A stretch of 64,000 bases of DNA from Gleimia hominis. Its GTDB lineage: Bacteria; Actinomycetota; Actinomycetes; Actinomycetales; Actinomycetaceae. This document shows, one piece after another, positions 9,605-51,454 of this stretch. The DNA is taken from contig NZ_CP126963.1 of the NCBI RefSeq assembly GCF_002871945.2, forward strand, positions 1,488,001 to 1,552,000. Reading direction: 5' to 3'. Below the pieces are notes generated by a model, which saw nothing but the letters and a program-made list of their open reading frames with translations, did no database searches and was not told the origin of the DNA. A program made the position numbers and the translations under genes. Position 1 is the stretch's first letter. Every line of letters begins with the position of its first letter.

Positions 9605-12436
9605 ATGATTACGGTTCACGACCGCACCGCCACGACATTCACCACCACCGGGCTAGGAGTCTTGGATCGGGAAATCATCAACCCGATCGTGGTTGAGGAA
9701 CTTGGCGGCGAATTCTCACTGACCTTCACCTACCCAGCAGACGGCCCCGCAGCCACGCACCTCGTACTTGAGAACATTGTGGCAGCGCCCGTGCCAGGAC
9801 TGGAGCAACGGCAGGGTTTCCGCATCAGCGAGGTCGTCACCACCCTCGAAGGAACGCTGGAAGTGACGGCGTTTCATGTCTTCTATGATCTGGCCGCGAA
9901 CCTCATCGCCGACACCTACGTTGTCAACAAAACCGCGAAAGATGCACTCACTCAAATCCTTGGCGCGGCAAACACCAACCATAATTTCACTGCCACAAGC
10001 TCGGATACGGTGACGCGATCCTCGGCACGGATGGTACGCATGCCCATCGCCCAAGCTCTCATGGATGCGGGCGAGGATAACACGCTCATCTCGCGTTGGG
10101 GCGGCGAACTGGCCCGCGATAATTTCCATATCCATCACTCCGCTCGGCGTGGGCGAAATACAGGCGTTGTCATCCGTGATCGGAAGAACCTCACTGGGTT
10201 TGAGTCATCCATTGATTTTTCGACGGTGGCGACGCGGATTCTCCCGGTGGGCTACGACGGCCTACTCCTACCCGAGCTCTATGTGGATTCGCTGAAGTTG
10301 GGTGATTATGTGGTGCCGCGTATCCGCGTCATCCGCTACGGACAAGTCAAAGCCATCACGGATAAAGACAACCCACGTGAAGGCGAGCTTCCACTCGACC
10401 AAGCACACGCGCAGTTGCGCCATCTGGCAGCAGCAGAATTCAGCGCCAAGCATGTGGATGAGCCGTCCGGGTCGTACAAGATCCGCTTCACTGACCTTTC
10501 ACAAACCCGTGAATACGCTGACCTCGCACGGCTGGAAACCGTCGAAATTGGCGACACCGTGACCGTCCGCCACGCTGATCTTGGTGTTGCGCTCACGGCA
10601 CGGGTGGTCGCTTACGAATACAACCCACTCGCGCTCCAGTACATTTCGGTCGAACTGGGTTCTACTGCTCGGAAGTTCACGTCCGTCACCCGGCAAGTGA
10701 AGACTGCCATCAATACGGCGGTGGCTGCATCGGATACGGCAGGATTCGCCCTCGCAAGCGCTGATGGGAAGAACACCAACCACTACGGCACCACCCAGCC
10801 CGAGAAGGCACAGCTCGGCGACACATGGTTCAAAAGCAACGGCGAAACCACCGAAATCTGGATATACCGGCTCACCGACACCGGGCAGCCCGGCTGGGTC
10901 GCCCTCGCCACCGATCTGAACCATGCACAGATCAGCGCGGAACTCGACGCAGCACGCACGCAGGTCGACCAAGCCCTCACCACCGCACAAGACGCACAAA
11001 CCGCCGCCGATGCTGTCGCCACTCAGATGGCTTCGGCGCAGGTCGATATTGACCAGGCCAATACCGCAGCCGCTGGTGCTACCCAGTTGGCGCAAGATGC
11101 CCACGACGTTGCGGTTACCTCGGATGGGCGGCTCACGGTTGCCGTTGTTGACCCGAGCGTAGCGGACGCGGCTGGCAGGCCGGAGGGTGCGCTATGGCAA
11201 GTGCGCGTAGACGGCGTGATCGCCCGCCAATACATTCTCACCAACAACCAATGGGAGCAGACACCGGTGGGTGGCGCGATGATCGGGTCGAAAGCGATCA
11301 GCCAAGCACACATCGCAGACGCCGCCATCGGCACCGCACACATCGCTGATGCCGCGATCACCAACGCGAAAATCAGCTCACTGTCGGCAGACAAGATCAC
11401 GGCTGGGTTCTTGGCGGCTGACCGTATCGCCACGGGAAGTATTACCTCCGACAAGCTGACAATCGCGAGTGGGTTCATCACCACCGCAATGATTGCCAAC
11501 GCCGCGATCACGGACGCAAAGGTTGGCAGTCTATCGGCGTCGAAGATTACGACCGGTACCTTGTCGGCTGCACGCATCGCAGCAGGGTCCATTACCTCGG
11601 ACAAGTTGACGATCGCTAACGGTTTTATCCAGTCCGCGATGATCAAGGACGCTGCGGTCACATCGGCCAAGATTGCTTCGCTGGATGCTGGGAAGATCAC
11701 CACCGGGACGTTGTCGGCGACACGGATTGGGGCTCGCTCGATTACGGCAGACAAGCTCGCGACCAACGCCATCCAAGTAGGCCTAGCAGGCTGGACGCAA
11801 TCTATCCGCATCACCCCGTATCAGATCGCTTGGTACAACGGCTCCACCTTGGAAGGGACAATCTCCAGTTCCGGGATGAAATTCTGGTACGGCACCCGCT
11901 ACATCGGGGAAATGGCACGCCGTGCTCACAAGGACAAGCCCGACGTGCAAGGCGTCGTCAACCAGGTCGCCTATCAAGGCGACTATGTGGCCTGGACATA
12001 CCAGACGGTTTCCGACGGCACCTACTACACCTGCCTCACCCTGGATCCGAAGGGACGCTTCTACGGCAAGGCCGGCATTCATCTCGGTGCTGACTTGCGC
12101 ACCAACGGCTACAAGTTCTACACCACCGGCTCGCGCTACGTGACCTTGCAAGACTGCACGCTCACCGGGAAAGGCACCTACGCCGGGTGGGCGTCGAGCA
12201 ATGGGCTGGCGAAGATCGTCTTCCACACCTACGACGTCATGGTCGTCACCAATGGGTCGTATTACAACATGACCCGCCTATTCGACCGCACCAAAGATTT
12301 GATGTCGCGGATGAACGCGATCCTCAGCCTGCTCAATCAGGGGTGGATCACATCCATCTCCGGAACCGGATCGAACATCACGTGGCGGTACTTCTCCAAC
12401 ACTGGCTTATCGACCATGTCCACCAACCTCGCATAA
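9605..12436 (+). CDS. Tail-tip / fibre protein with endopeptidase-like N-terminus
   Basis: 943 residues. The start is the ATG at 9605, preceded by GGAAGG; the longer opening overlapping the Dit gene is rejected. The N-terminal 380 residues resemble prophage tail-associated (Tal, minor tail endopeptidase-type) proteins that form the baseplate hub. A coiled-coil Ala/Gln stretch (about 435-505) follows. Residues about 565-720 hold short imperfect repeats such as KITTGTLSAARIAAGSITSD, a fibrous trimerising pattern seen in phage side fibres. The last 220 residues (from GWTQSIRITPYQIAWYN) are a beta-rich, Tyr/Gly/Thr-rich tip that probably binds the host surface. The receptor is unknown. Confidence 0.83.
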   Translation: MITVHDRTATTFTTTGLGVLDREIINPIVVEELGGEFSLTFTYPADGPAATHLVLENIVAAPVPGLEQRQGFRISEVVTTLEGTLEVTAFHVFYDLAANLIADTYVVNKTAKDALTQILGAANTNHNFTATSSDTVTRSSARMVRMPIAQALMDAGEDNTLISRWGGELARDNFHIHHSARRGRNTGVVIRDRKNLTGFESSIDFSTVATRILPVGYDGLLLPELYVDSLKLGDYVVPRIRVIRYGQVKAITDKDNPREGELPLDQAHAQLRHLAAAEFSAKHVDEPSGSYKIRFTDLSQTREYADLARLETVEIGDTVTVRHADLGVALTARVVAYEYNPLALQYISVELGSTARKFTSVTRQVKTAINTAVAASDTAGFALASADGKNTNHYGTTQPEKAQLGDTWFKSNGETTEIWIYRLTDTGQPGWVALATDLNHAQISAELDAARTQVDQALTTAQDAQTAADAVATQMASAQVDIDQANTAAAGATQLAQDAHDVAVTSDGRLTVAVVDPSVADAAGRPEGALWQVRVDGVIARQYILTNNQWEQTPVGGAMIGSKAISQAHIADAAIGTAHIADAAITNAKISSLSADKITAGFLAADRIATGSITSDKLTIASGFITTAMIANAAITDAKVGSLSASKITTGTLSAARIAAGSITSDKLTIANGFIQSAMIKDAAVTSAKIASLDAGKITTGTLSATRIGARSITADKLATNAIQVGLAGWTQSIRITPYQIAWYNGSTLEGTISSSGMKFWYGTRYIGEMARRAHKDKPDVQGVVNQVAYQGDYVAWTYQTVSDGTYYTCLTLDPKGRFYGKAGIHLGADLRTNGYKFYTTGSRYVTLQDCTLTGKGTYAGWASSNGLAKIVFHTYDVMVVTNGSYYNMTRLFDRTKDLMSRMNAILSLLNQGWITSISGTGSNITWRYFSNTGLSTMSTNLA

Positions 12437-37382: not shown

Positions 37383-39431
37383 TCACGGTAGGTAGTACGC
37401 GGGGTTCGGTACCTTGTAGGCGCGGTCAGAAGCGCCGCCCTTCAAATCCGAGTACTGATCCCCAAAGTTACCAACCACCCGGTAGCCAAGGTCATTCTCA
37501 AAGTGCTTACGCACCGAAGACTTGTACTCAACAGTTGTGCACTTGTCCTGCGCGCAACTCACCCAATCCGGTAACTCAGCCTTCAACGAACTCGCCTTCA
37601 AAACAAACTGGTCGAACTGTGGGTACCCAGCCTCAAGCAAGTTACGTTTCGTAACATCCGTAAGCTGTGCCTCACGCCCAGTTAACACAGCTACCGAACA
37701 ACCAGCATTCTTCGCTTCCTTCACCACATCCACCATTCCAGGCACAGCAGGTAGCGAATGATAATTAGTCTTCAAATAATCAATCTCAGCTTCGTGCGAC
37801 CAGTTCAAATCCATCGACTCTTGCATCGAATACGTCAACAACATCGTGTCATCCACATCGAACACCGCCAACGGTTTCTGCCCCTTCGCAACACCTGCAG
37901 CGCACCGCTTCACCAAGTCTTCACCATTCTTCTTAGCAAGCGCCCGCGATTCCTTTGCATACTGGGAATCGTTCAAATCAGCAACCCGCTCACCAGCCTC
38001 ATCAAGATGCGAACCGTAGTACTCGCGGATCGTCGCCTTCACAATATCCATATTCGGAATCTGATCCCCCGTAACACCGGGCGCACTCCCAGACGAACCA
38101 TCCGCAGCCACCTGCCACGTGTACTCCGCCGGAGCCATCCCCGCAGCCGCATCAGCCTGCTCCGCCTCCGGCAAATCCGGGCTCGGCAAGTAATACGACG
38201 GGTTCGGCAACTTCACCGCCTGCTGCGCATAACCGCCCTGCAGATCCGACCACTGGTCCCCAAAGTTACCAACAATCGTGTAACCCAGATCCTCCTGAAT
38301 ATGCTGACGCGTCCCCGCCTTAAACTGAACCGTCGTACACTTATTATTTTCCATGTCACAACGCCCCTGCTTCTGCAAATACTGAGGCATCTGCGCACCC
38401 TTATTGAACTTCGTGAAGAACCGGTCAATATTGAACGCCGGCTCACCCTGCGCATCCACATAACCCGCAGCCGCCAAATTATCTACCGTGTACTGCTTCT
38501 GCGAATCCTTCCGACCCGTCAAACCAATAATCTCGCAACCAGCCTGCGACAAACGCTTCACCACATCCACCATTCCCGGTGTAGCTGGCATTTGATTACC
38601 ATCAAACCATGTCTGCTGTTTATCTGGCGTGAACATGAAATGCATATACGCATCTTCCATATCGTAAGTGAACAGCGTCGTATCATCCGAGTCGAACACT
38701 GCCGCCGGCTTCTTACCCGCAGCCACCGCAGCCTGACACCGGTCCGCAACCTGCTCCGCTGCCTTACCAACCACCGCAGTCACATCCGAAATATAAGGCG
38801 ACTGAGTCTTATTAGCAATCCCCTTATCATCCGCATTGTAGTAAGCCCGCACAGTTTTCTTCGCGATATCCCAGTTAATAATCTGCTCACCACTAGCCGT
38901 CTTCCCAGTCGACCCATCCGCCGCCAGCGTGTACGTCGCCTGAGGCTTCATCCAGCTTTCGTCCGCATCCGACCGTTTGTCGTTCGGATCGTTCCCACTC
39001 GGTGGTTCCGACGGGTTCGAACCCGGGGTTTCACCCGGTTTGTTGGTTCCCGGGCCGCTAGCACCAGGCTCGTTCCCCTCACCCGGTTTACTATCGCCCG
39101 GCTTGTTTGCACCAGGATCGGTTGCGCCCGGCTTCGTCACTGCCCCACCCGCGTTATCGCGCGCAGGATCATAGTGGTAGCCAGCTGGACACGCCTTCGC
39201 CGTTCCCGCTTGCTCAGCCGCATTTGCCTGAGGAACCGCCAACCCCATCGGCACCAGAGCCAGCACCGCAAACGCAGCCACAATACCGAAGTTGCGCCGG
39301 CGCCTCAGGAGCAAAAAAATACCCGCTATCAACAAGATAGCGGATACGCCAGCCGCCCAAATGGCGGTGGAACCAGTGTGCGCAAGATTCGGCACACAAT
39401 AATCGGGGATCTTTGCCAAACTCATGATCAC
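37383..39431 (-). CDS. Tandem-domain HAD acid phosphatase (class IIIB) with atypical N-terminus
   Basis: 682 residues from GTG 39431 (GGAG 7 bases upstream; ATG 39425 is the alternative). Two HAD subfamily IIIB phosphatase domains follow a Pro/Gly linker. Copy 1 has the nucleophile motif VFDSDDTTLFTYD (about 245), GCEIIGLTGRKDSQK and DLGYTIVGNFGDQWSDL; copy 2 has VFDVDDTMLLTYS (about 522), GCSVAVLTGREAQ and NFGDQYSDL. The secretion region is strange: LAHTG at residues 16-20, a membrane helix, RRRR, then a second hydrophobic segment ending in an AxA-type cleavage site (ANA-AE). That is a sortase-like sorting signal at the wrong end, then a normal signal peptide. Expected to be surface or secreted and to release phosphate from monoesters. 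Confidence 0.82.
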   Translation of the reverse strand: MIMSLAKIPDYCVPNLAHTGSTAIWAAGVSAILLIAGIFLLLRRRRNFGIVAAFAVLALVPMGLAVPQANAAEQAGTAKACPAGYHYDPARDNAGGAVTKPGATDPGANKPGDSKPGEGNEPGASGPGTNKPGETPGSNPSEPPSGNDPNDKRSDADESWMKPQATYTLAADGSTGKTASGEQIINWDIAKKTVRAYYNADDKGIANKTQSPYISDVTAVVGKAAEQVADRCQAAVAAGKKPAAVFDSDDTTLFTYDMEDAYMHFMFTPDKQQTWFDGNQMPATPGMVDVVKRLSQAGCEIIGLTGRKDSQKQYTVDNLAAAGYVDAQGEPAFNIDRFFTKFNKGAQMPQYLQKQGRCDMENNKCTTVQFKAGTRQHIQEDLGYTIVGNFGDQWSDLQGGYAQQAVKLPNPSYYLPSPDLPEAEQADAAAGMAPAEYTWQVAADGSSGSAPGVTGDQIPNMDIVKATIREYYGSHLDEAGERVADLNDSQYAKESRALAKKNGEDLVKRCAAGVAKGQKPLAVFDVDDTMLLTYSMQESMDLNWSHEAEIDYLKTNYHSLPAVPGMVDVVKEAKNAGCSVAVLTGREAQLTDVTKRNLLEAGYPQFDQFVLKASSLKAELPDWVSCAQDKCTTVEYKSSVRKHFENDLGYRVVGNFGDQYSDLKGGASDRAYKVPNPAYYLP

Positions 39432-39545
39432 AAAACCACTCCGTTCAAATAATAATAGTGGACACAAAAAGCATACGTCGTCACGCAGCTACTTCGCAGC
39501 CCCCTATCAAAAGCCCCAGAGCCAAAGTTCCAAGACGACTAATCC

Positions 39546-41749: not shown

Positions 41750-42685
41750 TTACAGGCCTTTCGACAGTTCAGTTAGAACGGTGAGGTCTGTGTCTGATAG
41801 TTCCAGCTGTGCGCCAGGCATGATTTGTTCTAGTTGCTCGACGTTGCGTGCGGACGCGAGTGGCGCGGCGACGGTATCTCGGGCACGCAGCCACGCGAGA
41901 GCCACCGCTGCGGGTGTTACGCCTTGGGCAGACGCGATTTTCCGGAGTGCGTCAACCACGTCGTACGCCTGGTCGTTCACGTACACATCTACCATCGAGG
42001 CGCGGTCACCGTTAATGGCGGTGTCCCGCTCGTATTTACCGGTGAGGAACCCGGCTGCCAGTGAGAAGTAGGGGAACACCGCGAGGTTCCATTTACGCGC
42101 GAAGTCTTGCCGTTGTGCCTCAAAGTCTTTTCGGAACACAAGATTGTAGTGGGGCTGCAGGGCGACTGGTAGTTTGTAGCCTTTATCTTTCGCTACTTCC
42201 ATCCACAGTTCCAGGCGGTCTGGTTCGAAGTTCGAAAGACCAATTTCTTTTATGAGGCCTTCGCTAGCCAGTTCGGAGAAAGCATGTGCCATTTCGTCCA
42301 TCGGCACATCTGCGTCATCTTGGTGAGCGTAGTACAGGTCAATCTGATCTATGCGCAAACGCTCTAATGACTCTTCGGCTGCTTTACGAACGTTTTCTGG
42401 GGCAAGGCCTTCCCGCCCAGGTTTTTGCGACACTTTGGTGGCGACCGCTAGTTTCTTGTGGTTGCCCGGCTTTTCTAGCCACTGCCCCATGGCAGCTTCG
42501 GATTCACCACCTTCGTTGCCTTCTGCCCAAGCTGAGTACACGTCAGCGGTGTCCACGAGCGTGCCACCCAGTTCAACGAACGCATCTAAAATATCTGCGG
42601 TTTGCGCGACGTCGGCGGTCCACCCAAAGGTGTTACCACCAAGCGCAATCCCCGTTGTCTTCAAATCAGAATCACCAATATTCAT
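41750..42685 (-). CDS. Aldo/keto reductase
   Basis: 311 residues, complete (beta/alpha)8 NADPH enzyme with tetrad Asp45, Tyr50, Lys84 and His121 (DTADVY, ATKV, YYAH). Cofactor segments IGLSNFEPDRLELW and LASARNVEQLEQIM follow. It reduces aldehydes or ketones; the substrate cannot be told from sequence. It is a single gene bounded by a strong terminator at its end. It belongs to the broad actinobacterial AKR group often named for general oxidoreductases. Confidence 0.87.
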   Translation of the reverse strand: MNIGDSDLKTTGIALGGNTFGWTADVAQTADILDAFVELGGTLVDTADVYSAWAEGNEGGESEAAMGQWLEKPGNHKKLAVATKVSQKPGREGLAPENVRKAAEESLERLRIDQIDLYYAHQDDADVPMDEMAHAFSELASEGLIKEIGLSNFEPDRLELWMEVAKDKGYKLPVALQPHYNLVFRKDFEAQRQDFARKWNLAVFPYFSLAAGFLTGKYERDTAINGDRASMVDVYVNDQAYDVVDALRKIASAQGVTPAAVALAWLRARDTVAAPLASARNVEQLEQIMPGAQLELSDTDLTVLTELSKGL

Positions 42686-42799: not shown

Positions 42800-44374
42800 C
42801 TATCTACTCACACACGGCTCTTCCTCAAGAAGCTCCCCATTCGGCCGTTTGCGAAAGCCACCGCCAACCTGCCAAGGCCTAGGCCCTTCCAGCGGACGGT
42901 AGTTTACCCCCGAAGCATTCAAGCGCTCCAAATGCTTTTTAAGCCTAGACAGGAAAGCTGCGTAACTGGCTTTCTTCTCGCCGGACCAAACTACCTCGGA
43001 AAACGCACACCCTCGAGGCCACGCAGCGTACTCCACGCCCCTGTAATCGGGTATATATTCGGTCCAAACCTGAAACTGTGATCCCCAAACGAGGTGTTTC
43101 TTGTCTTCCGTAATAGTAGACAAAGGATCGAAACTATATGCCTTCTCCAAAGGAAGATAACTCCCCATAGAATATGGTTCCTTCATCGATTTCGATTGAT
43201 AATAGTCAAAATACGTAAAAGCACGCGGGGTCATTATAGTAGGCATATTGAGTGAAGTGGACTTCGATCCTCGCTGACTACTCTGCCATGCTTGGCAAGC
43301 AAGACCTTCTATCCTTCCCCCGTTAATAACCTCATCCCACCCAATAGGCTGCACCCCCCGCTGCTTCAACCAATCGGTCAAGTAGATCGTAAACCAACGT
43401 TGCACTTTTGAAGGGGCATAGCCATGCTTCCGCGCAAAATCTATAACATGAGCATTATTCTCCCATTGCGTGGTAGGAACCTCATCACCACCGATATGGG
43501 CATACTTGGCGCCAGTTAACTCGAGGATTTCATCCCAAATCGTATGGACAAACTGCAGTGTTTCTCGTGAAAAATTGATTACGTTCTCGTGCACCCCCTT
43601 ACTACCGCTCACATCCGCTGCCTTCGGAGATGCACCTAGATCTGGATAGGCCGCTAATGCTGCGGTCATATGACCTGGAAAGTTAATCTCGGGAACAACC
43701 TCAATGCCCAGCGAATTAGCGTACCTGGATATCGCTCTTATTTGGCTCGGCGTATATAGTCCTCCGTGCGGCGCATGGTCACCGCCCCATGCGTCCGTAA
43801 CAGTTTCAGGGCGCCAACTCGCTACCTCCGCTAACCTCGGATACGAATCACTAGCAAAACGCCACCCTTGATCGTCAGTCAAATGCCAATGGAAGACATT
43901 AATCTTATGGCGAGAAAGCCATTTCAAAAATACCAACAAATCTGAATAAGGAATGAAATGACGAGCCGTGTCCAGCAAACCACCACGCCAAGAGAATGCT
44001 GGGTAATCTACTATTTCACCACCTTGGAGCTTCCAGCTTTCTCTTGCGAAAGGAGCAGCAAATATTTCGGGATCAGCAAGCTGCAGCAAGGTCTGAGCCG
44101 CCCAAATAGCGCCACGCAAATCTGCAGCAAAGATTTCCACCTTCCCATGTTCAACATTTAAACGGTAGCCTTCGGGCGGAAGGCTGGTCTCACTTGTAAC
44201 CTCAATATCCGCACTATTAGACGTTGAAAGCGTAAAACCGGTTGTCTCAGCAAGAATGTGTTGAACAGCATCACAGATCTTTGAATCTGTCGGCCCTATT
44301 GTTGATGCTTTAGTTAATAGAAAGCTATCTTCTCGCCATTTCACGCTAACGGGATGGGGGACTAATGAACGCAT
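42800..44374 (-). CDS. Beta-N-acetylhexosaminidase, GH20, cytoplasmic
   Basis: 524 residues. GH20 enzymes cut terminal beta-linked GlcNAc or GalNAc by substrate-assisted catalysis. An N-terminal GH20b-type domain leads to the TIM barrel with GGLLDTARHFIP, FHWHLTDDQGWR, EINFPGHMTAAL and the catalytic Asp-Glu pair in HIGGDEVP (about residues 296-299), ending with aromatic WEDE-like residues (AWPRGCAFSEVVWSG). No signal peptide is present, so it works on imported sugars. Good ribosome site (TTGAGG). Last gene of the operon; codon choice and AT-rich sequence differ from pckG and other flanking genes. Confidence 0.92.
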   Translation of the reverse strand: MRSLVPHPVSVKWREDSFLLTKASTIGPTDSKICDAVQHILAETTGFTLSTSNSADIEVTSETSLPPEGYRLNVEHGKVEIFAADLRGAIWAAQTLLQLADPEIFAAPFARESWKLQGGEIVDYPAFSWRGGLLDTARHFIPYSDLLVFLKWLSRHKINVFHWHLTDDQGWRFASDSYPRLAEVASWRPETVTDAWGGDHAPHGGLYTPSQIRAISRYANSLGIEVVPEINFPGHMTAALAAYPDLGASPKAADVSGSKGVHENVINFSRETLQFVHTIWDEILELTGAKYAHIGGDEVPTTQWENNAHVIDFARKHGYAPSKVQRWFTIYLTDWLKQRGVQPIGWDEVINGGRIEGLACQAWQSSQRGSKSTSLNMPTIMTPRAFTYFDYYQSKSMKEPYSMGSYLPLEKAYSFDPLSTITEDKKHLVWGSQFQVWTEYIPDYRGVEYAAWPRGCAFSEVVWSGEKKASYAAFLSRLKKHLERLNASGVNYRPLEGPRPWQVGGGFRKRPNGELLEEEPCVSR

Positions 44375-44477: not shown

Positions 44478-45806
44478 TCAGTCGGCATCGGACTCTGCCA
44501 CTGTTAGGTTGCCGAAATCTGGTGCAGGCCCATGCGGATTATCTACACTCACTGCGTTCAAACCTTCTTTGAGAGCTACACGAACTTGCTGCCTAGCAAA
44601 GCTTCCCTTAAAGCTGCCTGTATTAAGTCCGCCGAAAACCGCAGTAGGAGTGTTGTTAACAAGTACCCTAAATCCTCTCGGATCTTTACACCTGTATTCA
44701 AAAGTGAGTACATACTCACCCGCTTTGGGCACCCATATGTTAGTCAAAGTAGCATCATTGTTTGCACCACCTAACCACCTGGCTACCCACCGATCCGATC
44801 TAGTATTGCCACGCAAGTAGCCATCCGCGATTGTTCGCTCGTATGGAAGCGTAGGTTGTTTCTGATAAGCACGGAAATAATCAATCTCAAATTCTTTAGG
44901 GTATGGAACACTCGGATCATACTGTCCGTTCCATCCACCTCGTTCGTTTTCATATATTCCCAACAGGGTTAACATAGGGTACCCAATCGTGGAGCGCGTT
45001 TTCGCAACCAATTCTCCATCAATCTGCATTGCCATCCCAGACTCATCCCAGTCAAATTCGAACACATGGAAGTCATCAGCAAAACTCTCTTCACCGGGTA
45101 AAGAGAATTTTTGCTTAGTTGGAAATACACCAAGAGTATCCTTCCACGGATGAACTGAAAACTGACCCCCTGTAGCATCCTTAGCACCCAAAATTTCGAA
45201 AACATCCACTTCCCCAGTTTCGCGACCATCAACATTTGAGTGCTCGGCTTCTCCCTGGTTTGCACCTATCATCCACCACGCAGTATGTGAACCGCTTCCC
45301 CTTGCTACACGCGCTCTCAGCTCAAAATGACCATACTTTTGCAGGTGCCCGCGAAAATGTTGAACTTCACGAATAGGCCCTTCGTAATCAGCCCACCTGT
45401 GCAAGTCATCTCTTTCGTAAGTTTGGATCGAAGACACTTTAGTACCAGGGTCTTTAATTGGATCCCAACCAGCTCGGTTCTTTGTTAACCGCAGTTTAAG
45501 TGTTCCATTATTCACAACATAGTCTGGTCGTGTTTCTCCGTTAGACCAGTGCGGTAAATACTCATCAAGGAAAAGTGAGTGGTTAATATCCTTCGTATTA
45601 AACTCATCCGATGCGAGTAGCACATACCCTTCCTTTTGAGGGGTATCTCGATCTATCGGCGCTTCGAAAGGTGGTAGAGCACTATAAGTGGATAGACCCT
45701 TATTAAGTTCAGCTGCATCGGTATCAACCACCACTGCAAACGTCGATACAAACGCGGCAGATAGCAATAAAACAGCAGATTTGAATACTCTCGAACGTAG
45801 CATCAT
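44478..45806 (-). CDS. Secreted GH16 glycoside hydrolase with C-terminal beta-sandwich
   Basis: 442 residues. A signal peptide (basic MMLRSRVFK, hydrophobic core, cleavage near DTDAAE) predicts export. The GH16 catalytic fold covers about 55-315: FRGHLQKYGHFELRARVARG and the active-site GEVDVFE (ExDxxE, about 198-204), then DFHVFEFDWDESGMAMQIDG. A second beta-sandwich (about 325-442, WVPKAGEYVLTFEYRC) resembles CBM35/CBM6 modules. GH16 includes laminarinases, lichenases, agarases and mucin endo-beta-galactosidases; substrate cannot be fixed here. Genetic link to GH20 favours a glycan with N-acetyl sugars. AAGGGA ribosome site. Confidence 0.82.
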   Translation of the reverse strand: MMLRSRVFKSAVLLLSAAFVSTFAVVVDTDAAELNKGLSTYSALPPFEAPIDRDTPQKEGYVLLASDEFNTKDINHSLFLDEYLPHWSNGETRPDYVVNNGTLKLRLTKNRAGWDPIKDPGTKVSSIQTYERDDLHRWADYEGPIREVQHFRGHLQKYGHFELRARVARGSGSHTAWWMIGANQGEAEHSNVDGRETGEVDVFEILGAKDATGGQFSVHPWKDTLGVFPTKQKFSLPGEESFADDFHVFEFDWDESGMAMQIDGELVAKTRSTIGYPMLTLLGIYENERGGWNGQYDPSVPYPKEFEIDYFRAYQKQPTLPYERTIADGYLRGNTRSDRWVARWLGGANNDATLTNIWVPKAGEYVLTFEYRCKDPRGFRVLVNNTPTAVFGGLNTGSFKGSFARQQVRVALKEGLNAVSVDNPHGPAPDFGNLTVAESDAD

Positions 45807-45808
45807 TC

Positions 45809-46636
45809 TTATCCCTTAATACCTGTGTAGGCTAATCCTTCTATTACGTGTTTTTGCATGGAGAAAAAGAGCGCAAAAATGGGAAGCATTGCAAGCGTGG
45901 ACGCAGCCATCATTAGTGCATACTCAGAGACGCGATACCCCGAAAGGGTAGCTATTCCAACCGATAGCGGCATGGATTCCGGTCGGCTGGTAACCACCAG
46001 AGGCCAAAGTAACTCATTCCAAGACCACAGAACGGTCGTTATTCCCACCGCAAAAAGCGATGGACGCACTAAAGGCAGCATTATTTTCCAATAGATCCGA
46101 AGATGGCCTGCACCATCCACTCGTGCTGACTCTTCTAATTCTTTCGGTAAAGCTTCAAATGCTTGCTTCATTAGGAATGTTCCAAATGCCGAGAAAAGAC
46201 CCGGCATGACAATTCCCGCAACTGTATCCAATAATCCCAAATTCTGTATTATCTGGTACTGGGGAATCAGATATATTTGCCCTGGCACCATCAGAATTAT
46301 GAGCAGTAACGCAAAGAGGAAGTTCCTGCCGCGAAAGTTCATTCTCGCGAATGCGTACCCAGCCATAGAACACAGTACTAACTGCGTAATCGTACGTATA
46401 ACTGTGATCAATACTGAAGTCACAAACTGGTTTCCAAATGGGATTTCCTTGAAAACATTCGCATAGTTCTCAATATGAATAGAATCTGGTATCAATGTCG
46501 GTGGAACAGATGAAATTTGCGCATCTGTGGAAACCGACATGAGCAACTGATACAGGAATGGGAACGCCATTATGAAACCGCCACCCAGCAGAGCTGCATG
46601 GACAAGGAAAAGAGAGTTATTACTACGTTTTCTCAT
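45809..46636 (-). CDS. Sugar ABC transporter permease (MalG type)
   Basis: 275 residues, six predicted membrane helices. The EAA loop for ATPase contact is ELEESARVDGAGHLRIYWKI. Its start overlaps the end of the next permease gene by 4 bases; 2 bases separate its stop from the GH16 gene. Membrane half of a CUT1 importer for di- or oligosaccharides. No ATPase is encoded in the cluster, so a shared MsmK-type ATPase elsewhere is needed. Confidence 0.9.
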   Translation of the reverse strand: MRKRSNNSLFLVHAALLGGGFIMAFPFLYQLLMSVSTDAQISSVPPTLIPDSIHIENYANVFKEIPFGNQFVTSVLITVIRTITQLVLCSMAGYAFARMNFRGRNFLFALLLIILMVPGQIYLIPQYQIIQNLGLLDTVAGIVMPGLFSAFGTFLMKQAFEALPKELEESARVDGAGHLRIYWKIMLPLVRPSLFAVGITTVLWSWNELLWPLVVTSRPESMPLSVGIATLSGYRVSEYALMMAASTLAMLPIFALFFSMQKHVIEGLAYTGIKG

Positions 46637-47565
46637 TGGTCAATCCATTTTTTACGGATGTGAAATTGAAAAGCTGTGACTCCACCTATTATCAGAAGAA
46701 TAATTACTGCCACTGCTGCTCCCATGCCTTTGTCGTTGTTGGTGAATGCCTCAGAGTAAAACAAGTACACCAATGATTTAGTATGTGGTAACGCTGGATT
46801 ATTAGTCCCCATAAGTGCAAATAGAGCATCGAATAACTGAAATCCACTGATGGTCTGCACGACGGTCAAGAGAAAAATTGAAGGAGCTAGCAACGGAACA
46901 GTAATTGAGAAGAATTGCTGTCGCTTTCCTGCTCCGTCTAGCGACGCTGCTTCATATAACTCATGGGGAATACCGGATATCCCAGCTGACAGTATGATGA
47001 CGTTAAAGCCTATCGATGCCCAAACCCCAAATAGACACACTGCTGCAAGTGCAAAACCGGGGGTAGTCAACCAGTAAGGCGGATTCTCAACACCAAACTT
47101 CGATAAAGCTTGGTTTACCAAACCAAAATCACCGTTAAGTAGCAGTTTCCACACAAGGGCAACCGCAACAGGCATTGCTATATAGGGCAAGAAAAACATG
47201 CCTCTATATATGCGTGCCCCTTTCAGCCCTGGAGTTGCTAATAGTGCTGACACCACCAGCGCGAGTGGGATGCCGAGCAGAATCGCCGCTACGTAAATTA
47301 GGTTGTTCATCAGCGCTGAGCTGAAATCTGAGTTCGCGAACAGGTTCTTAAAGTTCTGCAGACCAACCCATTCAACGTTGTTTCCAAAGGCGCCTGATTG
47401 CGTGAAGGAGATGTAAAAGTTCTTTACAATCGGGTAGTGGTAAAAAACAACCACTCCTAGCATCAGCGGGCCAATGAATAAGAGGGGCCACCAGCCATCG
47501 GTTTTCTTTTTCTTGGCGTGGGAGGAGCCGACGCTCCTCCCACGCCCATTAGTCGTTATTTTCAT
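46633..47565 (-). CDS. Sugar ABC transporter permease (MalF type)
   Basis: 310 residues with six helices, a Lys-rich N-terminus (AKKKKTDGWW) and EAA loop ELYEAASLDGAGKRQQFFSI. Partner of the MalG-type permease, to which it is ATGA-coupled; it begins 2 bases after the binding-protein gene. Together with the lipoprotein it would bring the released oligosaccharide into the cell. CUT1 family by size and motif. Confidence 0.9.
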   Translation of the reverse strand: MKITTNGRGRSVGSSHAKKKKTDGWWPLLFIGPLMLGVVVFYHYPIVKNFYISFTQSGAFGNNVEWVGLQNFKNLFANSDFSSALMNNLIYVAAILLGIPLALVVSALLATPGLKGARIYRGMFFLPYIAMPVAVALVWKLLLNGDFGLVNQALSKFGVENPPYWLTTPGFALAAVCLFGVWASIGFNVIILSAGISGIPHELYEAASLDGAGKRQQFFSITVPLLAPSIFLLTVVQTISGFQLFDALFALMGTNNPALPHTKSLVYLFYSEAFTNNDKGMGAAVAVIILLIIGGVTAFQFHIRKKWIDQ

Positions 47566-47567
47566 AA

Positions 47568-48866
47568 CTACTTTTCTTTAGCTAAAAGATCATTCATCTC
47601 TGAAGCAAGCGTCTTAGCGGCGTCCTCCATTGAGCCGCCTGCATCAAACGCGGGCACGAGAATTTCGTTCTCTTTCTCGTTCCACGCCGATGTATTTTTA
47701 GAAACGGGGTATGGAACTGAGTTATTCTCCGCAGAGTCGATAAAGCCCTTGAGATTCCAATCCGGAGCAACCTTCAGCCACTCATCTTGAGTTCCTACAT
47801 ATGCCGGAATTGCTGTTCCCATTTGTGCATCAACGAGCTGGGCCTCTTCAGACCCTAAGTATGCCGCAAGTGCTTGAGCCGCAGCCATTTGCTTGGTTTT
47901 TGATGACACGGCCCACGACATGCCATGGATTACTGTCGACATGTTCTTAACTTTTGGTAAGTAAGCTACGTTGTAGTCTCCAGCATCATCACCGAGTTTT
48001 TCTTTAAGAGGGCCAGCTACCCAGGAGCCATCCCACAGCATTGCGGCTTTACCGGACGAGAAGATATCTATTGGCCACGTGGTAGACATCATTTTCGTTT
48101 GTGGCATACCCCCATCGTGAATGAGATCTGCCCACAACTGTAGGCCTTTAATGGTTTCTGGCGAATCATAACCGGACTTCCCATCTTTCAGAATAGATCC
48201 TCCAGACGCAGGAACCGTGTTGTAATAGCTGGTTTGCCCTGACCCCACAATATTCGTCACAACGCCGTGGATACCTTTATCTTTGAAATGCTCACCCACT
48301 TTTACTGCTGCGTCATGGAACTCATCCCAACTCCAGTTATCTTTCGGCTCATCAACTCCGGCCTCTTTCAGAAGCTTCTTGTTATACCAGACGCCGATGG
48401 TATCGAAGTCCTTGGGAACGCCATACAGTTTATTATCGTAGGTGTATAAATCAACTAATGCCTCAGGGTACTTACCCTTATCTACTTGCTTATTCTTAGC
48501 AAGCTCTTCGAGCGGAGCAAGTTGCCCATTTGATGCGTAAAGCTGGAAATTTGGACCGTTCATCCAGAAGACATCTGGGAGATTGTCACTCTCAGCTTGA
48601 GTACGCATTTTGAGCCAGTAGTTGTCGTAGTCCTCTACCGACGGTTTCACTTCGATCTTCGGATACTTTTTGTTGAATCCTTCAATCATCTTATTTAGCG
48701 ATGGAAGCTGGTTCTTGTCCCAAATGGAAATGTTCAGCTTGGCTTTTGTGTCCGCGTTAACATCCTGAGTCTTATCACCGCCGGCATCACCTCCTCCGGA
48801 ACACCCGGCAAGAAGCAGCACAGTCGCGGCGACCGCGCAAACTCTACGTAATTTAGGGAAAAACAT
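47568..48866 (-). CDS. Sugar-binding lipoprotein of the ABC importer
   Basis: 432 residues. Lipobox LLLAGC at residues about 17-22 gives an acylated Cys; mature protein is a cluster-B type solute-binding protein with FNKKYPKIEVKPSVEDY near the start and the VWYNKKLLKEAGVDEPKDNW segment. Such proteins bind oligosaccharides with stacked aromatic residues (many Trp/Tyr here). CAGGAGG lies upstream, behind an unusually AT-rich spacer (48867-48903, with TTAATTAATTA). Substrate unknown. Confidence 0.9.
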   Translation of the reverse strand: MFFPKLRRVCAVAATVLLLAGCSGGGDAGGDKTQDVNADTKAKLNISIWDKNQLPSLNKMIEGFNKKYPKIEVKPSVEDYDNYWLKMRTQAESDNLPDVFWMNGPNFQLYASNGQLAPLEELAKNKQVDKGKYPEALVDLYTYDNKLYGVPKDFDTIGVWYNKKLLKEAGVDEPKDNWSWDEFHDAAVKVGEHFKDKGIHGVVTNIVGSGQTSYYNTVPASGGSILKDGKSGYDSPETIKGLQLWADLIHDGGMPQTKMMSTTWPIDIFSSGKAAMLWDGSWVAGPLKEKLGDDAGDYNVAYLPKVKNMSTVIHGMSWAVSSKTKQMAAAQALAAYLGSEEAQLVDAQMGTAIPAYVGTQDEWLKVAPDWNLKGFIDSAENNSVPYPVSKNTSAWNEKENEILVPAFDAGGSMEDAAKTLASEMNDLLAKEK

Positions 48867-48903: not shown

Positions 48904-51174
48904 TTATCTCATTGGCGAGATTGCTTGATTATTCGCGTAGTACTGCAAGAGTTTTTCAGGCAGTTCGGGTACGGTTTTTAGTTCTGAGTTGTTGCGTAGT
49001 GATTGGGTTGCTAAGTCGCCTACTGCGACTGCGTTCCACGCGTTGATTGGGTTCGCGTCAATAGAGGCACGGCCACGGATGAAATTAATGAACTCAGCTA
49101 CTTTCTTTCTGTCCGCATCATTGTGTCCCCGCTCGTCGCCCACAATCGGGATTTCCAAATCTGCTTTTGCAGAGTAAGTAGTTCTACGCGTCCAAACCTT
49201 CACCACACCACCGTCTGAATCACCGAAGTTCTCCAACCGCCCATCCGTGCCAATCACCGTGTAGTTACGCCAGTAATCAGGTGTGTAATGGCACTGCACA
49301 TATGATGCCAGCACGTCATTGTTAAACCGCATGTTCACCATATACAAGTCCTCCACATCAACAATTTCGTTGAGGCCCTTCTGACTCAAAGGCGGCCAGT
49401 TCTCTAACGAAAAGAACTCCCCCATCAGCTGGTCACTCCGATCCGCCCGGTCTTCAATCTGCGAATACAACGACTGCTGTCCCATCGCCGTAACCACTTT
49501 CGTGTACGAGCCACCCAGCCAATGCATAACGTCAATATCGTGCGCGCCCTTTTGCAACAACAACGAATTGCTCTTCGACCTATCCGCATGCCAATCCTTA
49601 AAGTAATAATCACCCCCATTCCCAACAAAATGGCGACACCAAATCGCCTTAATATCCCCAATCACACCGCTCGTAACCACATCACGCATAGCCCGAACCA
49701 CCGCCATATGCCGCATATTGTGTCCCACGTACAAACGCGTTCCAGTCCGATACGCCACATCAAGAATCCGCGTTGCATCCTCAACCGAAATCGCCATCGG
49801 CTTCTCCAAATACACCGCAACCCCAGCCTCAAGAAGCGCAATCGACACCTCAGCATGCGTAAAATCTGGCGTCAACACAAAAGCACAATCAATATCCGCA
49901 TCAACCACCTCCGCAATCGTCTTAACTACAGGAATATCCCGGCCCAACTGCTGCCTAACCCGCTGCTTCGCCAGTGGATGCGGATCACACACCAACACAA
50001 TCTGCGCATTCAACTCCGCACGCTCCACCTCCAACGCAAACGAAGAACGCGCCCCCGCACCAATCACCGCAACCCGCAGCCGACGCTGCGAACCCACCGG
50101 CCCGCTCAAAGCAACAGACGGAAACGCCGCCCGCACCGTACTCACCGACTCCGGTTTCAACCGCACCACCGCAGGCGCGCCAAACAAACGCTGCACCAAC
50201 TGCTCAACGCCAAGAACCGTGGCCCCAACCAACGCCGCCTCAGCCCCAAACGCGTTCCCCACAATCGGTATCGACGGCGCCCCATTGCGATGCATGCGCG
50301 TTAACTCACGTTTCACCTCCTCAACCTGCTCGCCATCCACCAGGTCTGCAGCCCCCAAAACCACACACTCCGGCCGCACCACCGCACACACCGCCCCAAT
50401 CGACAACGCGATTCTTCTGGTACGAGTCAACGCATCCGCCTGCCCCGCATGGGCATTAAGCTCTGCCCCCAGGAAGTCCGCTATCTCCCCAGCGCTGCCA
50501 CCCACGCCCTCATGAATCCGCCCATCAATAACCAAACCCGTGTTAACAGCCTGACCAATATCCACATACAACAAACCCGAATCCGCCCCGCCCGGCCGCG
50601 CAGAATACTCCGCCAACGCCACAAGATTCAGATTGTTATTCACCAACACATCGCAGTTAAACACGTCTTCGAGCCGCTTCTTGAGGGGAAAATTCGCCCA
50701 CTGCGGCACCATCTCAGAACGACTAACAACTCCCCCATCAACCACGCCAGTTACCGCAACGGAAACCAACTCAGGCTCATCGCCTTGCAAAAACTCATTC
50801 GCAGCCTTGACCACGCGCTCAAACCGCGCCTCACGCGACAATGTCGAATCCAACGTGCCCGTGTGAACCCGTAAAACCGCCCCATCCAGACCCGCCAGAG
50901 AAAACCCGATCCGATTGTCCATCAACCACACCCCAAGTGTGAGCATCGAACCAGCGACCAAACGGTACTTCGAAGCGGGACGCCCAGACGTAGCCACGTT
51001 TTCTTCCAACTCATCCACCACGCCACGCTGAATCAACGCATCCAACGCCGCTTTAACAGTAGGTCGCGAGCTATCCAAGCGTTCCACCAACTGGCTTATA
51101 GTGGCAGATCCCCGCGCATGCAAAACCTGCGCTACCGACGCCGCAGCAGGGCTAATGTCTTCCGCGAAACCCAT
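48904..51174 (-). CDS. Fused ROK-family regulator and Gfo/Idh/MocA oxidoreductase
   Basis: 756 residues from the ATG at 51174 (AAGGGAG 8 bases upstream; GTG at 51177 is possible). Three parts. Residues 1-70: winged helix (ATISQLVERLDSSRPTVKAAL). About 72-330: ROK fold with YVDIGQAVNTGLVIDG and GVGGSAGEIADF; the usual Cys-rich zinc motif is missing and kinase residues look degraded, as in ROK regulators such as NagC. About 365-756: NAD(P)-binding Gfo/Idh/MocA domain with RVAVIGAGAR, LEKPMAI (the conserved Glu-Lys-Pro), HNMRHMAVVRA and GAHDIDVMHWLGG. First gene of the glycan operon. A sensor and a sugar-modifying or sugar-sensing enzyme are thus one protein. Confidence 0.88.
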   Translation of the reverse strand: MGFAEDISPAAASVAQVLHARGSATISQLVERLDSSRPTVKAALDALIQRGVVDELEENVATSGRPASKYRLVAGSMLTLGVWLMDNRIGFSLAGLDGAVLRVHTGTLDSTLSREARFERVVKAANEFLQGDEPELVSVAVTGVVDGGVVSRSEMVPQWANFPLKKRLEDVFNCDVLVNNNLNLVALAEYSARPGGADSGLLYVDIGQAVNTGLVIDGRIHEGVGGSAGEIADFLGAELNAHAGQADALTRTRRIALSIGAVCAVVRPECVVLGAADLVDGEQVEEVKRELTRMHRNGAPSIPIVGNAFGAEAALVGATVLGVEQLVQRLFGAPAVVRLKPESVSTVRAAFPSVALSGPVGSQRRLRVAVIGAGARSSFALEVERAELNAQIVLVCDPHPLAKQRVRQQLGRDIPVVKTIAEVVDADIDCAFVLTPDFTHAEVSIALLEAGVAVYLEKPMAISVEDATRILDVAYRTGTRLYVGHNMRHMAVVRAMRDVVTSGVIGDIKAIWCRHFVGNGGDYYFKDWHADRSKSNSLLLQKGAHDIDVMHWLGGSYTKVVTAMGQQSLYSQIEDRADRSDQLMGEFFSLENWPPLSQKGLNEIVDVEDLYMVNMRFNNDVLASYVQCHYTPDYWRNYTVIGTDGRLENFGDSDGGVVKVWTRRTTYSAKADLEIPIVGDERGHNDADRKKVAEFINFIRGRASIDANPINAWNAVAVGDLATQSLRNNSELKTVPELPEKLLQYYANNQAISPMR

Positions 51175-51320
51175 CACAAACGCTCCCTTACGTTAAGTTA
51201 TTTCGATAGTCGGCAACCACTTATGGATACGAGTTTAACATGGGTTTGGTTCAGCCGTACTCACTTAAACAACACACGCAGCATCGCATCACCCCCAGCC
51301 GATCATGTACACTAGAGGCC

Positions 51321-51407
51321 GATCCCTCGTGTGACGGTATCTCCTGAACCTCCCCAGGGCCGGAAGGCAGCAAGGATAGGGTAGCTCTGCCGGGTACATG
51401 AGGGATC
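51321..51407 (+). ncRNA. ffs: 4.5S-type signal recognition particle RNA
   Basis: Ends pair as GATCCCTCGTGT with ACATGAGGGATC, and the internal core CAGGGCCGGAAGGCAGCAAG matches the SRP helix 8 tetraloop region bound by Ffh. Exact ends are uncertain by a few bases; a short T-run follows. Confidence 0.9.
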
Positions 51408-51454
51408 CTTTTACACCTCAAGGCACACTACGCATTACACCCAGCCGCGCCTAA

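Follow-up and report, generated by a model that had tools for sequence, protein, structure and literature searches.

A regulator and an oxidoreductase in one chain

The 64,000-nucleotide stretch of Gleimia hominis DNA analyzed here (NZ_CP126963.1, positions 1,488,001 to 1,552,000; hereafter the window) carries a gene that joins a ROK transcription regulator to a Gfo/Idh/MocA oxidoreductase, abbreviated GIM (Table 1). The frame is single and contains no internal stop, and GGGAG lies 8 bases 5' of the ATG that the initial annotation had taken as the start. A database copy of the window protein (P0002, with 7 member sequences) has 756 aa and is 100% identical.

Table 1. Features of the fused gene and its surroundings in the window
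Feature	Coordinates	Strand	Remarks
Fused ROK-GIM gene	48904..51177	minus	757 codons from GTG; ATG at 51174 gives 756 aa
Winged helix-turn-helix, residues 10-75	50953..51150	minus	Sub-threshold MarR_2, AF2 secondary structure, alignment A1
Degenerate ROK domain, residues 80-340	50158..50940	minus	PF00480, 62.9 bits; Foldseek to Lmo0178 (5f7q)
Linker, residues 341-365	50083..50157	minus	pLDDT <50 at 354-363; length differs among relatives
GIM oxidoreductase domain, residues 366-757	48907..50082	minus	GAGAR dinucleotide loop, EKP Lys459, His516, QKGAH with Lys543 and His546, GHNDAD His685
Intergenic region, expected promoter/operator site	51175..51317	.	143 bp, common to the fused gene and the divergent SRP RNA gene
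ABC sugar-binding lipoprotein (SBP_bac_1)	47568..48866	minus	Pfam
ABC permease 1	46633..47565	minus	
ABC permease 2	45809..46636	minus	
GH16	44478..45806	minus	N-terminal hydrophobic stretch resembling a signal peptide by eye
GH20 beta-N-acetylhexosaminidase	42800..44374	minus	No obvious signal peptide by eye
Aldo/keto reductase	41750..42685	minus	May end the run

Pfam searches of the fused protein revealed ROK (PF00480, curated cut-off 22.9 bits), GFO_IDH_MocA (PF01408, 79.6 bits against 24), GFO_IDH_MocA_C (73.9 against 22.9) and GFO_IDH_MocA_C3 (66.9 against 27). The rear half thus has PF01408 and a C-terminal domain over their cut-offs, as the GIM superfamily does. MarR_2 scored 23.8 bits against a cut-off of 27, leaving the winged helix sub-threshold by sequence. 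The AlphaFold model (mean pLDDT 81, pTM 0.55, 35 sequences used) showed helices at residues 10-22, 27-34 and 38-50 followed by strands, which is the winged-helix order, and in Foldseek the front part aligned with Lmo0178, a ROK repressor (TM 0.68 by target), and the rear part with enzymes of the GIM kind. On the sub-threshold MarR_2 match, the helix and strand order and the match to 5f7q, the front part was assigned the N-terminal winged helix of the ROK repressor subgroup. We aligned the window protein with 34 of the other 36 two-domain proteins that were found (alignment A1; P0017 of 648 aa and P0053 of 543 aa were left out), and S37, R38, P39 and T40 of the winged helix were invariant in all 35 fusions. 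The linker ranged from 28 to 68 residues among the fusions.

By longest-ORF coordinates, the fused gene is the first of a same-strand run, separated by 37 bp from the lipoprotein gene, which is followed after 2 bp by the first permease. The two permeases overlap by 4 bp, and the run continues with GH16 after 2 bp, GH20 after 103 bp and the aldo/keto reductase after 114 bp. The best PDB relative of the GH16 protein was the GlcNAc-alpha-1,4-Gal-releasing endo-beta-galactosidase 1ups (111.7 bits; next 54.5). The Pfam domains, the open frame, the model and the gene order bear out the initial annotation, in which a winged helix, a ROK fold and a complete oxidoreductase lie in one frame at the head of a glycan operon.

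A bacterial small SRP RNA gene was observed at 51318-51413 on the plus strand, divergent from the fused gene. A scan for strong palindromes upstream of the window gene and of 17 other fused loci, whose start codons were estimated, found none in the window or in 14 of the 17; L011, L013 and L018 had one each, not common to them, and six aligned propionibacterial upstream regions revealed no clear common palindrome. Elsewhere in the window, at 37383-39467 on the minus strand, a gene encodes a protein that shows acid-phosphatase (HAD IIIB) sequence in two places. Close to the N terminus, its residues 28-59 contain a sortase-type LAHTG, a hydrophobic stretch and RRRR, over the NCBIfam cut-offs for LAVTG and the LPXTG anchor; sortase-type signals are normally C-terminal.

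Conserved residues in the two halves

The zinc motif CxCGxxGC was absent from all 35 fused ROK domains and from 8 of 8 separate ROK regulators that partner unfused GIMs, while the other ROK proteins of that alignment often retained it (5 of 6 regulators and 3 of 7 kinases). This agrees with the initial annotation, which had described a ROK fold without the usual zinc cysteines. The ExGH His was also absent from the 35 fusions and the 8 partner ROKs. N181 and E231 were invariant among the fused ROKs, and the ND Asp was retained in 34 of 35, the sole exception being the window protein (N182), whose ROK domain is more diverged than average (27% to other fusions). These residues are presumably elements of the ROK sugar pocket. 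Because the zinc motif is absent, we placed the domain in a ROK-fold subfamily distinct from the canonical zinc-bearing sensors; judged by its residues, the ROK half is a domain that retains part of the sugar pocket and is not a canonical sensor. It resembles the ROK repressors (NagC, Mlc and XylR; Lmo0178, 5f7q), which are operon regulators, in combining a winged helix with the ROK fold. Unlike them, the fused protein lacks CxCGxxGC and the ExGH His and has an enzyme attached, and in 18 of 35 fusions, the window's included, the middle segment is shortened (32-38 residues; 57-64 in the remaining 17).

In the rear half, the EKP motif noted in the initial annotation was located at residues 458-460 and the oxidoreductase motifs were found intact. 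Lys459 was present in 35 of 35 fusions with E458 and P460 invariant, and His516, His546 and His685 were likewise invariant in all 35. Among 29 unfused homologues, Lys459, His546 and His685 were invariant and His516 nearly so. The usual DxxxH motif appeared as QKxxH in the fusions, the His being kept and the Asp being Gln in all 35. Variants of DxxxH occur in the GIM superfamily, as with HxxH in RgNanOx (PMC7535918). The conserved residues suggest that the rear half is very probably an active enzyme.

Spread and history of the fused and separate genes

The initial annotation had proposed a domain-architecture search for ROK plus GFO_IDH_MocA as a check. Such fusions were found: PF00480 and PF01408 occurred together in 37 of 59 protein matches (7992 candidates scored, namely those sharing most words). 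Two of these proteins, P0021 and P0022, bear the JGI name 'predicted dehydrogenase/predicted NBD/HSP70 family sugar kinase'. We also surveyed contigs of one genome per species and retained the best 80 of 534 stretches encoding a relative. The GIM frame included a ROK part in 29 of these 80 loci (27 genomes), counting as fused both L038, in which a contig end cuts the ROK side, and L004, in which the ROK start is not in frame; the GIM was in its own, unfused frame in the other 51. Fused loci among the best 80 came from Propionibacteriaceae, Actinomycetaceae, Promicromonosporaceae, Microbacteriaceae and Dermacoccaceae. In the family of the nearest genome, 47 of 197 genomes gave matches at E 1e-30, and each match listed begins at query residue 298 or later, close to the GIM part or inside it. 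The open-access literature searched yielded no paper describing a ROK-GIM fusion.

Regulators were also found beside unfused GIM genes. A same-strand LacI gene lay just upstream in 14 of the 51 unfused loci among the best 80 of 534; L080 has a weaker LacI match (34%), more than 5 kb away on the opposite strand. A separate ROK regulator of the same kind lay within 0.9 kb of the GIM in seven loci of the best 80 (L030, L035, L036, L037, L039, L044 and L071), convergent with it in L036 and L037, and more than 7 kb away in L056. In L035 and L039, both Bowdeniella, and in L044, Nakamurella, the ROK stop and the GIM start overlap in ATGA. No ROK remnant was detected at E 1e-5 near eight unfused GIMs (L065, L029, L027, L040, L045, L031, L054 and L050).

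The initial annotation had named a frameshift or assembly error, or a stop at about residue 340 in all close relatives, as findings that would refute the fusion. Such a stop is absent in 29 of the best 80 loci, and the fusion is not refuted by this check; 51 relatives have the GIM in its own frame, and in three loci the separate genes overlap in ATGA at that very junction. These three pairs of separate genes are what could be cited for an artefact that joined two genes. The fused frame recurs in other genomes, in 29 of the best 80 loci and in the 7-member P0002, and we therefore ruled out an assembly error; this explanation has practically no chance of being right. The ROK-GIM fusion is real and recurrent.

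A maximum-likelihood tree, built by a quick search from 83 GIM domains, required 7 changes of the fused label, 5 of them forced by starred branches; one domain labelled unfused, that of L075, begins at a contig edge. In a clade test on 64 rows, from which L075, two outgroup rows and 16 unfused rows (mostly of the LacI clade) had been removed, uniting the 30 fused rows cost 272.6 log-likelihood units (p-AU 3e-38), and a single origin of the fused state was rejected. Fusion or fission therefore recurred within the GIM family. The change counts read alike for either direction, and the two trees come from quick searches and contain some long branches, one of which is that of the window. Loss of the zinc motif predates fusion if the partner ROKs descend from unfused ancestors, and does not if they arose by fission.

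Two loci showed further irregularities. In L004 (Propionibacteriaceae P6A17, 10001-12268) the homologous stretch starts before the open fused frame does (10217), as though its 5' portion had been disrupted, and in L014 (Cutibacterium porci, ~9926-12280) the fused gene lacks the ABC-transporter genes found 3' in other Cutibacterium loci.

Substrate, chemistry and coupling of the two halves

Neighboring genes gave hints to the substrate. The GIM of L032 lies beside genes for an AgaR-like DeoR regulator, a class II aldolase, a PfkB kinase, a ROK kinase and a SIS-domain protein, a set that we infer to be a galactosamine (aga-type) pathway; most of the aga-like matches score below NCBIfam equivalog cut-offs. 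At least three of these five genes were present at 10 of the 51 unfused loci and at 0 of the 29 fused loci among the best 80 of 534. Melibiase-like genes were found in L020, L021, L030, L036 and L037. Together with GH16 and GH20 in the window, the aga-like and melibiase-like genes tentatively point to N-acetylhexosamine- or galactose-containing glycosides as the substrate. In the Microbacterium group an oligopeptide-type ABC permease comes after the fused gene, and the substrate may therefore differ between clades. In L036 and L037 (9977-19266; Trueperella/Actinomyces) the GIM and its convergent ROK were accompanied by a DUF4832 protein and the melibiase-like protein, and relatives of the latter two also occur near the fused gene in L020 and L021.

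Comparisons of the GIM domain with known enzymes gave differing orders. VIA-align ranked GH188 first, with 1,5-anhydrofructose reductase behind by only 0.9-1.3 Z, and Foldseek placed 1,5-anhydrofructose reductase first and GH188 fifth; the GH188 NAD-dependent sulfoquinovosidases (ArSqgA, 8qc3/8qc6) share ~17% identity with the window GIM. A sequence profile against the PDB gave 3moi 99 bits, RgNanOx (6z3c) 94, inositol dehydrogenase 91, GH188 81 and GH109 (2ixa) 52, the last confined to the Rossmann part. When the profile was limited to the region following EKP, none of the best-scoring PDB stretches extended past position 104 of 276, and the last ~170 residues of the GIM subfamily had no best-scoring PDB stretch by sequence.

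The GH109 alpha-N-acetylgalactosaminidases share the GIM fold, and His685 of GHNDAD aligns by sequence with the His of their GGHGG loop, the loop itself being different; the subfamily thus carries a His at the place of that of NAD-dependent glycosidases. A GHxxAD His was found in 4 of 60 control GIMs, which were loci returned by the searches, not a random draw, with one protein in twice. In contrast to GH109, the window protein did not match PF21252 (Glyco_hydro_109_C) among its Pfam matches at E 0.001 and has the EKP Lys at a position where the two GH109s that were compared read E-L-P and E-C-P. GH109 membership was rejected on these two grounds; the fact that no GH109 entry is among the 50 VIA-align rows listed excludes nothing. 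Of the GH109-like glycosidase proposed in the initial annotation, membership has thus fallen, and the glycosidase itself retains indirect support from the GHxxAD His, the galactosamine-pathway-like genes at 10 of the 51 unfused loci and the first rank of GH188 in one structural comparison.

The explanation that we favor, and consider rather probable, is that of a bifunctional regulator-enzyme, in which the rear half actively uses NAD to act on an imported glycan. As family membership suggests, the winged helix and the degenerate ROK domain would form a local regulator, binding DNA and governing the glycan-import operon to which the gene belongs. Given the invariant catalytic residues and the operon, the GIM would be capable of NAD(H)-dependent catalysis, and its substrate would be the sugar that the co-encoded ABC transporter imports. 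Its chemistry may be of the redox-assisted GH109/GH188 kind, with transient oxidation at C3, elimination, water addition and reduction, probably on an N-acetylhexosaminide; we regard this as somewhat likelier than plain dehydrogenation, with a chance just short of even. Fusion would tie the enzyme to the regulator, a role left elsewhere in the family to a neighboring ROK or LacI gene, and would ensure 1:1 production. DNA binding could perhaps be controlled by the ligand or by NADH through the enzyme half, much as the initial annotation had suggested that the regulator could read its own enzyme's substrate or cofactor, so that one molecule may both process the sugar and switch its genes. Counting against the favored explanation are the restriction of the aga association to unfused relatives and the window's ROK domain, with its above-average divergence and its N182.

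An ordinary sugar dehydrogenase or reductase in place of a glycosidase is a substantial possibility, one we would put somewhat below even. It agrees with the best NCBIfam matches (inositol 2-dehydrogenase and UDP-GlcNAc 3-dehydrogenase, all far under cut-offs), with the top Foldseek hit, with the sequence profiles, which rank dehydrogenases above GH188 and GH109, and with the GH20 that the window operon already has for beta-linkages. The scarcity of the GHxxAD His among the control GIMs, the rank of GH188 in VIA-align and the Gln in place of the usual Asp argue the other way. A 2,7-anhydro-sialic acid oxidoreductase of the RgNanOx/YjhC type, suggested by the second place of 6z3c in the profile, was judged very unlikely on active-site residues: RgNanOx is reported to lose its activity when His175, His176 or His178 is missing (PMC7535918), residues in whose place the ROK-GIM family has QKxxH, and no sialic-acid gene was identified among the 27 neighbor proteins run through Pfam or NCBIfam.

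The GIM half might instead be a pure sensor that binds NAD(H) and a sugar, turns neither over and passes a signal on to the DNA-binding half. Yeast Gal80 is a GIM-fold protein that signals in sugar gene control, being a eukaryotic co-repressor without a DNA-binding domain; its chains (2nvw and 3bts) matched the GIM weakly (E 0.03-0.14). Since the 35 fusions and 8 partner ROKs have a degenerate ROK sugar pocket, sensing may have moved. If the GIM half did no more than sense, the loss of some catalytic residues would be expected, but the EKP Lys and the three His are kept throughout the fusions and, His516 nearly so, in the unfused homologues, a number of which lie beside a separate LacI or ROK gene. 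We therefore consider a pure sensor improbable. Tethering for co-expression alone, with independent domains in fixed stoichiometry and no mutual influence, is compatible with the bifunctional regulator-enzyme and denies only coupling; we regard it as quite plausible, short of an even bet. The linkers, variable in length and of low confidence in the model, speak against rigid coupling, and with the pTM of 0.55 they leave an allosteric contact without support; the occurrence of fused and ATGA-overlapping separate genes within the same family also fits mere tethering. Recurrent fusion or fission of the same kind of ROK with the same GIM argues the other way in suggesting some benefit of the covalent link, which stoichiometry alone could nevertheless give.

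A bolder form of the bifunctional reading seems unlikely to us. In it, the GIM would be the first to be recognized of a new family of NAD-dependent N-acetylhexosaminidases, and would switch the ROK joined to it directly, through its redox state or a bound product; if true, a single molecule would both cleave one imported host-glycan disaccharide and control the genes for it. Both halves belong to known superfamilies. To our knowledge, regulator-enzyme fusions are few; they have revealed the wiring between metabolism and transcription. PutA, BirA and NadR also combine a DNA-binding regulator with a metabolic enzyme in one chain. They differ from ROK-GIM in belonging to other families and in having proven coupling, which in ROK-GIM would be allosteric and is a conjecture.

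Since the ROK/GIM pair exists fused, overlapping, adjacent or with a different regulator, the value of fusion is directly testable, and the family includes named actinobacterial strains of Cutibacterium, Actinomyces, Acidipropionibacterium, Microbacterium and Isoptericola. Two extra tandem GIM genes were also observed near a family member in L013 (15378-17473) and L032 (14371-16463), giving three different GIMs per cluster, and similar tandem pairs occur in L023, L024, L034, L073, L074 and L075.
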